NCBI RefSeq assembly: GCF_902706095.1
Contig: NZ_CACSJP010000010.1
Location: forward strand, 62,001-126,000
DNA: 64,000 nt
Reading direction: 5' to 3'
From: Rhizobium sp. 18065
Lineage (GTDB): Bacteria > Pseudomonadota > Alphaproteobacteria > Rhizobiales > Rhizobiaceae
Below are positions 46,155 to 49,709 of the stretch, piece by piece. A program made the position numbers and the translations under genes. Within the stretch, counting starts at the first letter, position 1, and the number at the start of each line of letters is the position of its first letter. The notes below the pieces were generated by a model that saw only the letters and a program-made list of their open reading frames with translations, ran no database searches and had not been told where the DNA came from.

Positions 46155-47453
46155 TTACGCCCCGGCCTTGATCGACAGGCTGTCGAGATAGGCTTGTGGG
46201 TTTTCCGGATCGAAGACCTTGCCGTCGAAGAAGGTTTCGACACCGCGCGAGGTCGAAGCCGGGATGTCTGCGGCGGCTACTCCCAGATCCTTGGCGGCTT
46301 CGCGCCAGATGTCCTCGCGGTTGACCTTGTCGACCAGCGCCTTGATGTCGGTGTCTTGTGCGAACTTGCCCCAGCGGACGTTCTCGGTGAGGAACCAGGC
46401 GTCGTGGCTCTTGAACGGGTAGGATGCATGGTCCTTCCAGAACTTCATCTCGAGCCCGGTGTTCTCAAGGAGGCGGCCGTTTCCGTAGTTGATTGTGCCC
46501 TTGAGGCGGCCGGCGACATCCTTCGGCGGCACGTTGAACCATTGGCGCTTGCCGAGGATCGCCGACATCTCTTCCTTGTTGTCCATGCTGTCGGCCCACA
46601 TCTGGGCTTCCATCACAGCCATCATTAGTGCCTTGGCGGCATTCGGGTTCTTTTCGATCCAATCGGTGCGCAGGCCGAGCGCCTTTTCCGGATGACCCTT
46701 CCACAGCTCGCCGGTGGTACAGGCAGTAAAGCCGATGCCCTGATTGACCAGCTGTTCGTTCCACGGCTCGCCGACACAGAAGGCGTCCATATTGCCGACC
46801 TTCATATTGGCCACCATTTGCGGAGGCGGTACGACGATGGTGGAGACGTCCTTGTCCGGATCGATGCCCCCCGCGGCCAGCCAATAACGGATCCAGAGAT
46901 CATGCGTGCCCCCCGGGAAGGTCATCGCGACCTTGATCTCGTTGCCAGCTGCCTTCTTGGCGGCGAAGGCTTCCTTCAGCTTGGAAGCGTCGAGCTGTAC
47001 GCCGGTTGCGGCATATTCCTGTGCGACCGAGATGCCCTGACTGTCGAGGTTGAGGCGGGCGATGATCGACATCGGCACAGGAACGTTGTTCTGGGTCACC
47101 TTGCCGGTGGAGATGAGGTAGGGCATCGGGGTCAGGATATGCGCGCCGTCAATGCCGTTTGCCTGGCCGCCAAGCACCAGATTGTCGCGCGTCGCGCCCC
47201 AGGAGGCCTGTTTGAGCACTTCGACATCGGCCATGCCGTGTTTTCCGAAGAAGCCCTTTTCCTGGGCGATGATCAACGGTGCGGCATCGGTGAGCGCGAT
47301 ATAGCCTAGTTTCAGTCCCGTGACTTCCGGGCCGCTGCTGGCGGCAAAGGCGCCGGATGGGAATGCGGAGCGCACCGCGCTGACCAAAGCGGCCGCAGCG
47401 GTGGTCTTGAGGATATTACGACGGCTGATGCCCATTCCTGTAGTCTTCGTCAT
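46155..47453 (-). CDS. nrtA: nitrate ABC transporter substrate-binding protein
   Basis: 432 residues. A twin-arginine signal (ISRRNILKTTAAAALVSA) leads to a cleavage region near AFAAS. The mature part matches NrtA/CmpA receptors (KLGYIALTDAAPLIIAQEKGFFGKHG, TFPGGTHDLWIRYWLAAGGIDPDKD, VGEPWNEQL, LENTGLEMKFWKDHASYPFKSHDAWFLTENVRWG). ATG 47453 was chosen; a frame open to 47495 is less likely because it runs into the terminator T-tract of the leader. First gene of the nitrate operon, behind the leader RNA at 47491-47621. Confidence 0.95.
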   Translation of the reverse strand: MTKTTGMGISRRNILKTTAAAALVSAVRSAFPSGAFAASSGPEVTGLKLGYIALTDAAPLIIAQEKGFFGKHGMADVEVLKQASWGATRDNLVLGGQANGIDGAHILTPMPYLISTGKVTQNNVPVPMSIIARLNLDSQGISVAQEYAATGVQLDASKLKEAFAAKKAAGNEIKVAMTFPGGTHDLWIRYWLAAGGIDPDKDVSTIVVPPPQMVANMKVGNMDAFCVGEPWNEQLVNQGIGFTACTTGELWKGHPEKALGLRTDWIEKNPNAAKALMMAVMEAQMWADSMDNKEEMSAILGKRQWFNVPPKDVAGRLKGTINYGNGRLLENTGLEMKFWKDHASYPFKSHDAWFLTENVRWGKFAQDTDIKALVDKVNREDIWREAAKDLGVAAADIPASTSRGVETFFDGKVFDPENPQAYLDSLSIKAGA

Positions 47454-47490: not shown

Positions 47491-47561
47491 AACAAAAAAA
47501 GCCGCCCGGTTTTTGCGTCCGCGGGAAAGGAGGATTCCCGGAATGCAAGACCAAGCGACTT
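47491..47561 (-). terminator. regulated intrinsic terminator in the nrtA leader
   Basis: On the minus strand the 5' arm (47559-47551) and 3' arm (47509-47501) can pair over nine positions, three of them G-U, enclosing a second hairpin (CGGGAA/TTCCCG arms, 47540-47522). The 3' arm is followed by seven T residues (47500-47494), one G and five T. The 5' arm is shared with the upstream P2 hairpin, so the two structures exclude each other. Confidence 0.7.
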
Positions 47562-47618
47562 CGATGTCTCTGGTGAGCGCAGTTTGCGCTCTTGTATGTC
47601 CGGTCGCCGTTGACCGGA
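47551..47618 (-). ncRNA. two-hexaloop ANTAR-target leader RNA (P1 and P2) upstream of nrtA
   Basis: P1 (47618-47599) is a 7-bp stem with hexaloop AACGGC. P2 (47573-47551) is a stem of eight pairs with one mismatch and one bulge and hexaloop ATCGAA. Both loops have A at position 1 and G at position 4, the signature recognised by ANTAR antiterminators. P2 uses the 5' arm of the terminator. An extra 6-bp stem (47591-47575, 5-base loop) lies between them. NasT, encoded 2 kb upstream, is the expected binder when nitrate releases it from NasS. Confidence 0.75.
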
Positions 47619-47632
47619 TTGTATTTATGGAA

Positions 47633-47647
47633 GCAAAAGGCGTGCCA
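47633..47647 (-). promoter_or_regulatory. sigma-54 (-24/-12) promoter of the nitrate operon
   Basis: On the minus strand TGGCACG, four bases, then TTGC match the RpoN consensus with the invariant GG (47646-47645) and GC (47634-47633) ten bases apart. The start point would be near 47621, three bases before P1 of the leader RNA. Sigma-54 dependence implies activation by NtrC. Confidence 0.75.
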
Positions 47648-47804: not shown

Positions 47805-49088
47805 TTAAAAATCATGCGGGGCGGCGGATTGCGTCGGCTGGCTTGCGACCGGAAAAGCCTCGACATAGGTCCTGATATCCGCAGGGTCGAAAATCATCGA
47901 GTCCATGAAACGATCGCCTTCGAGCGCGCCTTCGATGCGGATATCGGCATCGGCAGGTGCTGAGGCATTGCCGAGTGCTTCGCGGTAGATCTCCGGCCGG
48001 AAAGCGCCGGCGGCTTGCTGTGCCCCATCCTCGCTGAATCCGACCTGTCCCCAGCGGATCATCTGGCTGTAGATCCACAGCGCCTGGCTCGGGCGGGGAT
48101 AGTTTGCATTCTGGCGGTGGAAGACGAAATAATCCGGCAGCAGCCGACGATTGCCTTTGGCATCGAGGCTGAATTCGCCAGCCAGGACGCGGCGAATGAT
48201 GCTGACTTCGGTCGCGATGTAGCGCGCGTCTGCCAGCATTTCCGCAAGGTGATCGTGGTTTTCGGGCGCATCACACCACTGGGCTGCGGCATCGAGGGCA
48301 ACGATCAGGCGCGAGACGGTGTCGCTGTTGCTTGCGGCCCAATCGGGGCGCATGCCGACCACCTTTTCAGGCGCCGACGGCCATATGTCTTGTTTTGCCG
48401 CCACGATCCGGCCGACGCCGCGCTCGGAGGCAACCATGTTCCACGGCGCGCCGACACAGAAACCGTCAATGGCGCCGGCGGCCAGTGCATCGGACGTCAG
48501 TGACGGCGGCACGACAACGAGTTTCACATCCCGGTCGGGGTCTATGCCGCCAGCGGCCAGCCAGTAGCGGAACTCGTAGTTGTGCGACGAAAACGGGTAG
48601 GTCATACCCAAGGTTGGCGGTTGTTCGCCACGGGCACGCATGTCGGCGAGTACGGAAGCCAGCGCCTTCGCATTGTCGAGCGCGGATGCATCCTCGCCGA
48701 TGCCGGTCAGGGACTGCATGCGCTCGAAAAGTCTTAGCGACAGTGTGATCGCATTGCCGCCGCGACCGAGGGAGAAGGGGGTGATGGTCGGCGAGGGATT
48801 GGAGCCGAGGCCGAGCATCGAGGCGACGGGCATGGGCGAAAGCATATGGGCAATGTCGAACTGGCGAAAGGCGAGACGATCACGGACATTGGCCCAGGAA
48901 ACGTCACGGACAAGATCGAGGGTCAGCCCTTCGCGCTCGGCGAAACCACATTCGGCAGCGGCGACCAGCACCGAGGCGTCCATCAGCGGGATGAAGCCGG
49001 CGCGCAGAACGCGTTGCTGCCTGCCGGGGCCGAGGCCCGGCGCGGCCAGTCCACCGCTATCGTTTCGCCTGCTCGTCATGTCATGCAC
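47805..49088 (-). CDS. nasS: cytoplasmic nitrate sensor NasS (NrtA-like, no signal peptide)
   Basis: 427 residues with an NrtA-like fold (RAGFIPLMDASVLVAAAECGFAEREGL, FCVGAPWN, GEFSLDAKG..., NANYPRPSQALWIYSQMIRWGQVG) but no export signal, the hallmark of NasS. NasS holds the ANTAR protein NasT inactive until it binds nitrate or nitrite. GTG 49088 is preceded by GGAGG at seven bases; ATG 49079 is an in-frame alternative. It is 33 bases downstream of nasT. Confidence 0.9.
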   Translation of the reverse strand: MHDMTSRRNDSGGLAAPGLGPGRQQRVLRAGFIPLMDASVLVAAAECGFAEREGLTLDLVRDVSWANVRDRLAFRQFDIAHMLSPMPVASMLGLGSNPSPTITPFSLGRGGNAITLSLRLFERMQSLTGIGEDASALDNAKALASVLADMRARGEQPPTLGMTYPFSSHNYEFRYWLAAGGIDPDRDVKLVVVPPSLTSDALAAGAIDGFCVGAPWNMVASERGVGRIVAAKQDIWPSAPEKVVGMRPDWAASNSDTVSRLIVALDAAAQWCDAPENHDHLAEMLADARYIATEVSIIRRVLAGEFSLDAKGNRRLLPDYFVFHRQNANYPRPSQALWIYSQMIRWGQVGFSEDGAQQAAGAFRPEIYREALGNASAPADADIRIEGALEGDRFMDSMIFDPADIRTYVEAFPVASQPTQSAAPHDF

Positions 49089-49121: not shown

Positions 49122-49709
49122 TCACAGCAGCAGTCCTGCTGCGGTAACCACGCTCTGGGCAATGTCGGCGAGTTTCTTCTTTTCGTTCATCGCGGTCTGC
49201 CGCAGCAGGGCGAAGGCTTCTTCTTCGCTCAAACCGCGCATTTTCATCAATATGCCCTTGGCGCGTTCGATGATCTTCCGCTCTTCCAGCGCACTGCGCG
49301 CCTGGGCCAGTTCGCGCTGCAGGCGGCTGAAGGCGTTGAAGCGGCTGACGGCCATGTCGAGGATGGGTTTGACGCGCTCCTTTTTCAGGCCGTCGACGAT
49401 ATAGGCGGAAACGCCGGCATCGACGGCGGCCTCGATCGAGGCGGTGTCGGACCGGTCGACGAACATCGCAATCGGACGCGCAACTGTGCGGGTCAGTTGG
49501 AACAGATGCTCCATCATGTCGCGGTTGGGGTTCTCGATATCGATGATGATGACGTCGGGCGCCAGTGTCTCGACAATGCGGGCAATGCCGTTGACCTCAT
49601 GGACGACCGTGACATGTGTGTGGCCCGCTTCGCGCAATCCTTCATCGATGATCGCCGCCCGCACGGCGTTCTCATCGATCACAAGAATGGTGAGGTCGGT
49701 ATTGCTCAT
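49122..49709 (-). CDS. nasT: ANTAR-domain response regulator NasT (transcription antiterminator)
   Basis: 195 residues. The receiver domain (about 5-120) has Asp12 and the phospho-acceptor-equivalent Asp57 (DVIIIDIENP). The ANTAR RNA-binding domain (about 135-190) reads ALEERKIIERAKGILMKMRGLSEEEAFALLRQTA. It is the expected ligand of the hexaloop leader upstream of nrtA. Start ATG 49709. Confidence 0.93.
   Translation of the reverse strand: MSNTDLTILVIDENAVRAAIIDEGLREAGHTHVTVVHEVNGIARIVETLAPDVIIIDIENPNRDMMEHLFQLTRTVARPIAMFVDRSDTASIEAAVDAGVSAYIVDGLKKERVKPILDMAVSRFNAFSRLQRELAQARSALEERKIIERAKGILMKMRGLSEEEAFALLRQTAMNEKKKLADIAQSVVTAAGLLL

Follow-up and report, generated by a model that had tools for sequence, protein, structure and literature searches.

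The nrtA operon of Rhizobium sp. 18065 raises the question of whether its leader is an attenuator worked by NasT and, if so, what the additional hairpin between the two hexaloop hairpins of this leader does. Both points go back to a preliminary description of the window (the whole stretch of 64,000 nucleotides that was analysed), in which the additional hairpin was an aside; this aside led to the most informative part of the follow-up. All window features discussed below are given on the minus strand.

The nasT gene (49709 to 49122, with the ATG at 49709; searches used the translation from 49721) encodes a receiver and ANTAR protein (Pfam ANTAR, 4.1e-22; Response_reg, 3.5e-9). The protein aligns with EutV and NasR, its matches being 6wsh (EutV, 3.7e-20) and 4akk (nitrate regulatory protein, 3.8e-11). 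Adjoining nasT is a gene for a nitrate-sensor-like protein (49088 to 47805; Pfam NMT1_2, 7e-71), which we take, from knowledge of the family, to be NasS; its end, at 47805, and the predicted transcription start of the leader are 184 nt apart. The first gene after the leader is nrtA (47453 to 46155, start codon at 47453; Pfam NMT1_2, 2.2e-105), followed by nrtB (46076 to 45165) and nrtC (45151 to 44354), which jointly match Pfam BPD_transp_1 and ABC_tran, and by open frames named by eye from the sequence as nirB-like (44348 to 41901) and nasA-like (within 41762 to 38844). Genes for an ANTAR protein and an NMT1_2 sensor are thus neighbors in front of a nitrate operon, and nasS and nasT lie upstream as had been described. 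The genome encodes two ANTAR domains, that of NasT and one outside the window (G000:C10:22030-22182, 43.2 bits).

A letter-by-letter check of the gap between nasS and nrtA gave, in order of transcription, a promoter, hairpin P1, a middle hairpin M, hairpin P2, a terminator, a run of seven U and nrtA. P1 (47618 to 47599), UCCGGUC[AACGGC]GACCGGA, has 7 bp and a hexaloop at 47611 to 47606. P2, the antiterminator (47568 to 47557), GAC[AUCGAA]GUC, has 3 bp and a hexaloop at 47565 to 47560. Both hairpins were read from the sequence, and both loops carry A at position 1 and G at position 4. The 3' half of P2 is shared with the 5' arm of the terminator (47559 to 47551), whose 3' arm (47509 to 47501) is followed by the U7 tract (47500 to 47494); these arms were assigned from sequence, fold and covariation. 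The two loops and the arms of the terminator with their coordinates had been given correctly in the preliminary description, which lacked two elements, the pairing of P2 loop bases 5 and 6 within the terminator and the promoter. As to the additional hairpin, M (47591 to 47575; GAGCGCA[AAC]UGCGCUC, from sequence, fold and covariation) does exist, but not with 6 bp alone as had been stated: it can be drawn with 6 bp and a 5-nt loop or with 7 bp and a 3-nt loop.

The promoter is of the sigma-54 type with -24 and -12 elements, TGGCACGCCTTTTGC (47647 to 47633, read from the sequence, spacing TGGCACG-N4-TTGC). By the -24/-12 rule for sigma-54 promoters, transcription is predicted to start near 47621, so that P1 would be the first structure, at the 5' end of the mRNA. 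Further upstream, 5' of the promoter, lies an inverted repeat, TTGTGC-N13-GCACAA (47772 to 47748), a possible regulator site; it is also present in one related leader (L039) and is not general among the 101 leaders described next.

Of 199 sampled genomes of the same family, 58 matched in searches with NrtA (the window's genome being one of them), and these yielded 30 loci; the searches also gave named loci, of which the best 80 of 579 were used. The leader set comprised 111 upstream stretches including that of the window, 103 of them distinct. The promoter, P1, P2 and terminator were kept in 101 of the 103 distinct nrtA leaders (in their named part, the best 80 of 579). The search pattern required that each loop carry A1 and G4 and that GAC/GUC flank the P2 loop; the conservation of these bases is therefore partly by construction and lends no independent support. 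Three features were not required by the pattern: the P1 loop was AACGGC or AAUGGC in 96 of the 101 leaders, a run of five U was found in all of them, and a sigma-54-like element preceded P1 in 101 of 101, in 87 with the exact TGGCACG-N4-TTGC. In every case the sixth pair of P1 had its 5' base at +4 to +6 of the predicted start. NtrC-like sites were found in 3 of the 101 leaders (0.6 in shuffles), and no common NtrC site was found among them. The linker between P1 and P2 measured 29 to 40 nt when P1 was counted up to 8 bp, and 21 to 40 nt when long P1 stems were counted whole. Among the named loci (the best 80 of 579), nasT and nasS lay directly upstream in 67; the 5 kb upstream contained neither gene in the other 13, most of which are, by title, R. 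leguminosarum or its relatives.

The covariation alignment held 73 non-redundant leaders of the 101, chosen by shared 8-mers and aligned by sequence only with MAFFT. Because MAFFT misaligned some M rows (that of the window was shifted by two columns), structures were assigned by hand for covariation scoring and for the covariance model. Pairing held in 96.3% of the P1 cells and 84.8% of the M cells; both sides had changed in 3 of the 6 core pairs of P1 and in 6 of the 7 pairs of M. Covariation, whose absence had been named in the preliminary description as refuting its reading, was found for P1 and the terminator; all three pairs of the P2 stem GAC/GUC were invariant in 73 of 73 leaders and, since they never vary, covariation is uninformative for P2. 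The covariation score for P1, M and P2 together was 0.216. Shuffled alignments gave 0.129, with none of 500 reaching the observed score, and slid helices did not exceed 0.071. The terminator, 2 of whose 12 named pairs were mostly unpaired, scored 0.095; the corresponding values were 0.045 for shuffles, again with none of 500 reaching the observed score, and no more than 0.041 for slid helices. On one FastTree tree of nrtA, counting varying pairs alone, the minimum number of two-sided Watson-Crick switches was 20 in three P1 pairs, 23 in five M pairs and 8 in three terminator pairs. Unconstrained RNAalifold on the same 73-leader alignment returned 4 P1 pairs and 10 terminator pairs, and neither M nor P2.

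The sixth base of the P2 loop was C in 71 of the 73 rows, paired with a terminator G. In the window and in L039 it was A and its partner U, and the same change was found in L047, which was left out of the 73; the co-change in the window's clade is one event. As loop base 6 changes together with the terminator, the hexaloop is part of the terminator arm, so a protein bound to this loop and the terminator cannot coexist.

The 131-nt leader of the window folded at -60.2 kcal/mol. Its 200 dinucleotide shuffles averaged -36.2 (SD, 3.75), and none of them reached so low an energy (z = -6.4). The lowest-energy fold of the leader contained P1, M and the terminator, with P2 as the excluded alternative. 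In every one of the 101 leaders the minimum-energy fold included the terminator, scored as present when four or more of the five GUCGC bases paired downstream, and forcing P2 cost a median of 8.3 kcal/mol. When the RNA ended before the 3' arm of the terminator, the median probability of P2 at three end points was 0.74, 0.73 and 0.67 among the 101 leaders, and 0.72, 0.99 and 0.99 in the window. According to these fold models, P2 can form first and would then need to be held. A descriptor of two A1/G4 hexaloop hairpins with a terminator overlapping P2 matched the window's minus strand, the strand scanned, at this leader only; it matched none of 120 shuffled single strands, each about 11 kb long.

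The leader is, with a probability of roughly 0.9, a NasT-dependent, nitrate-responsive attenuator of the nrtA operon, as the preliminary description had proposed; at the level of sequence, this reading draws on the 101 of 103 leaders, the covariation, the domains of NasT and the gene context. Against it count the 13 named loci with neither nasT nor nasS in the 5 kb upstream, the lack of a common NtrC site, the two mostly unpaired terminator pairs and the RNAalifold result. As an ANTAR attenuator controlled by NasS-NasT, the system belongs to a known type, and M is its newest part. Nitrate sensing, NasT binding, the order of events and the use of sigma-54 are modelled on homologues. RNA polymerase with sigma-54 would start near 47621, presumably activated by NtrC, and P1 would emerge first. 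Without nitrate, NasS would hold NasT; the 3' half of P2 and its loop bases 5 and 6 would then pair with the downstream arm, and transcription would stop at the U7 tract. With nitrate, free NasT would engage the hexaloops of P1 and P2 and hold P2 closed until the polymerase has passed the U tract, and nrtABC-nirB-nasA would be made. That the locus instead has a plain intrinsic terminator or some other control, with hexaloops arising by chance, is very improbable. A stable terminator would form under that explanation as well, but P1 and M would have no role in it, and yet both are conserved and covary; the empty shuffles of the descriptor and the adjacency of nasT and nasS also speak against it.

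In the leader of the window, two hairpins of at least 3 bp carry hexaloops with A1 and G4, P2 and an intrinsic terminator are mutually exclusive, and the genome has a gene for an ANTAR protein. The ANTAR dual-hairpin motif of EutV/eut, NasR/nasF and AmiR/amiE shares the two short A1/G4 hexaloop hairpins, the overlap of the second hairpin with an intrinsic terminator and the cognate ANTAR protein (PMC3369931; this and the other papers are cited for their accessible parts). The published definition permits a variable linker (PMC3369931). Linkers in the eut leaders of Enterococcus faecalis measure 5 to 12 nt (PMC3369931), whereas here the chain is 29 to 40 nt and contains a conserved hairpin, with a median of 12 unpaired bases if M is folded. 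Unlike in the motif as described in the accessible text of that paper, the putative sigma-54 promoter would set P1 at the extreme 5' end of the mRNA in the window leader (PMC3369931). The control of nasA in Paracoccus denitrificans is similar in that nasT-nasS precede a nitrate assimilation operon with leader hairpins HI and HII (PMC3795266, PMC5424462). In that organism nitrate drives the dissociation of NasS and NasT, NasT binds the nasA leader (PMC3795266), and HI is needed (PMC5424462); a third hairpin is not mentioned in the accessible text of these two papers, and the operon genes differ from those of the window. In Bradyrhizobium diazoefficiens, a rhizobium of the same order, NasT antitermination is described for nosR and other leaders, and PMC6759348 cites the binding of NasT to the nosR leader. 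Unlike that of the window, these leaders serve denitrification and other genes rather than nitrate assimilation (PMC6759348). For Sinorhizobium meliloti, the accessible text of a 2019 paper calls the regulation of nitrate assimilation not yet known (PMC6616083). The attenuator reading offers a specific mode of control, open to testing, for the nitrate assimilation operons of relatives in Rhizobium and Agrobacterium.

The role of M has to be considered separately. Its compatibility with both states of the leader indicates that M is not itself the switch. M with at least 4 bp was present in 99 of the 101 leaders, and its loops comprised 52 sequences of 3 to 8 nt among these 99, none an A1/G4 hexaloop; to judge from the alignments, the stem is kept by evolution and the loop is not. 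With M folded, a median of 12 linker bases were unpaired (10th to 90th percentile, 11 to 23). In the constrained fold, the open length had a median of 6.5 in linkers of 34 to 40 nt (n = 22) and of 11 in both bins of linkers of 29 to 33 nt (n = 79). This effective length was rejected as proof of M, as linkers fold after shuffling too, leaving 8.9 bases open on average; the open length was below that of a leader's own shuffles in 1 of 101 leaders, while the energy was below it in 63. The perfect stem in the linker averaged 6.2 bp compared with 4.0 in shuffles, but taken singly only 56 of the 101 leaders were below 0.05.

M may act as a spacer clamp that folds the linker of 29 to 40 nt and keeps P1 and P2 close, a role to which we give about an even chance. 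The covariation of M, its unconserved loop and the median of 12 open bases are in favor of this role. Published work on EutV counts for it as regards long linkers: induction fell drastically with a linker of 14 nt, as it also did with one of 3 nt (PMC3369931), and an extension of the linker by 20 nt abolished antitermination in vitro (PMC8934654). Against the clamp stand the folding of shuffled linkers and the linkers of 3 nt, at which EutV fails, in 7 of 33 motif instances near NasT. Since such natural NasT linkers exist, the distance rule of EutV is not transferable unchanged to NasT.

Alternatively, within the same NasT attenuator, M may act on timing or folding, either as a pause hairpin or as an insulator against mispairing between linker and P2. 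M sits just 5' of P2, and a hairpin as weak as P2, with 3 bp, would gain from time or insulation. The distance between M and P2 varies, however (10th to 90th percentile, 4 to 12 nt), which counts against a pause at a fixed place and leaves insulation untouched; on balance this explanation is rather unlikely. Slightly less likely still is that M serves as a recognition site for NasT or another factor. The near-constant presence of M would fit recognition, as would the AUA core that is common in Rhizobium loops (GGCAUAA in 10 and GGCAUAG in 9 of 99), but the loops vary in length and sequence, none is an A1/G4 hexaloop, the loop of the window is without the AUA core, and two sister genomes manage without M. 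The clamp remains the preferred role of M. The wider proposal, that the nrtA leaders of Rhizobiaceae and some neighboring families form a distinct three-hairpin class of ANTAR antiterminators in which M is required, is tentative and falls a little short of even odds. If it is true, M would close an over-long linker and let NasT move from P1, at the 5' end, to P2, and long folded linkers and very short unfolded ones would be two answers to one distance rule.

Why this matters is apparent from the structure of EutV, in which one dimer grips a single hairpin although function requires the two hairpins together with a short linker (PMC8934654). The leaders with M have a linker far beyond the tolerance of EutV, and the pairing of M was kept through at least 23 two-sided switches. 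With such a natural leader it can be tested directly whether the use of two hexaloops by an ANTAR dimer is governed by the length of the chain or by spatial distance. A hairpin conserved between two ANTAR hairpins was not found in the literature searched, in which most subscription papers and key supplements were beyond reach, so that this is weak evidence of absence.

The two exceptions among the 103 distinct leaders (L028 and L030, from the sister genomes G176 and G104) had a 3-nt linker without M, with P1 GGCGUCC[AAUGAC]GGGCGCC and P2 GGC[AAAGCU]GCC. Their nrtA was 79 to 80% identical, and nasT and nasS were adjacent. A covariance model of P1, M and P2 (R1) matched 28 loci in 27 of 297 genomes of the order. 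Read by eye, 10 of these loci were three-hairpin leaders, six of them in two other families (f11 and f41), and 2 had a fused form; the remaining 16 looked like chance matches. The fused leader (L146 and L130, from G194 and G029) begins at about 1500 on the motif strand, before a narK-like gene as judged by eye, and consists of P1 and M, a lost P2 and then a compact P1'-P2' pair with a terminator. In G194, the one NasT detected at E <= 1e-35 faces a three-hairpin nrtA leader and, as a second leader, the fused one.

Sixty regions (L199 to L258; 58 around NasT and those of G104 and G176) were surveyed with the descriptor at a score of at least 14; they include related and hence non-independent genomes, and some P1 assignments of low score may be in error. 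The survey gave 33 motif instances in 30 regions, with 18 linkers of 3 to 11 nt, 15 of 23 to 68 nt and none of 12 to 22 nt. The other 30 regions had no motif scoring at least 14, the descriptor being incomplete or the target elsewhere. Of the 15 long linkers, all outside the nrtA set, 5 were below 0.05 relative to shuffles (mean z, -1.5). Folding was strong in L225 (z = -5.3), L240 (-4.2) and L223 (-3.0), and no convincing fold was seen in L216, L228 or either linker of L232. The folding of long linkers is therefore firm for nrtA leaders and only suggestive outside the nrtA set. A model of the compact leaders was dropped after the outer P1 pairs failed to align (alignment A3, 17 of 18 compact leaders).

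Other copies of the leader were sought in the same genome. The best other match had an E value of 0.21 with RF03032 and of 1.16 with R1, and the compact pattern gave 0 matches compared with 1 in the reversed control. A looser pattern gave 10 matches compared with 2 in the reversed control, and all parts were recognized by eye in that of the window alone.

The best Rfam match of the leader was the narK RNA RF03032 (32.1 bits, E = 0.0012), below the gathering cut-off of 43.2. RF03032 has its parts in the same order as the window, a sigma-54-like block, P1 with AACGGC and a P2-like A1/G4 hexaloop block, but unlike the window it has a short linker without a middle hairpin. Set against window positions 47646 to 47555, the consensus has a 5' block (GGCACA-N4-UUGCU) that reads as a sigma-54 promoter and hence as a DNA element instead of a part of the RNA. 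The 3' block, CGAC[AAAGAC]GUCG, reads as an unannotated P2 hexaloop. From its sequence, the narK family looks like a promoter joined to a compact ANTAR/NasT motif. More than two A1/G4 hexaloop hairpins were seen in some surveyed regions, with a third inside the linker in L219, L225, L240 and L248 and 5' of P1 in L244.
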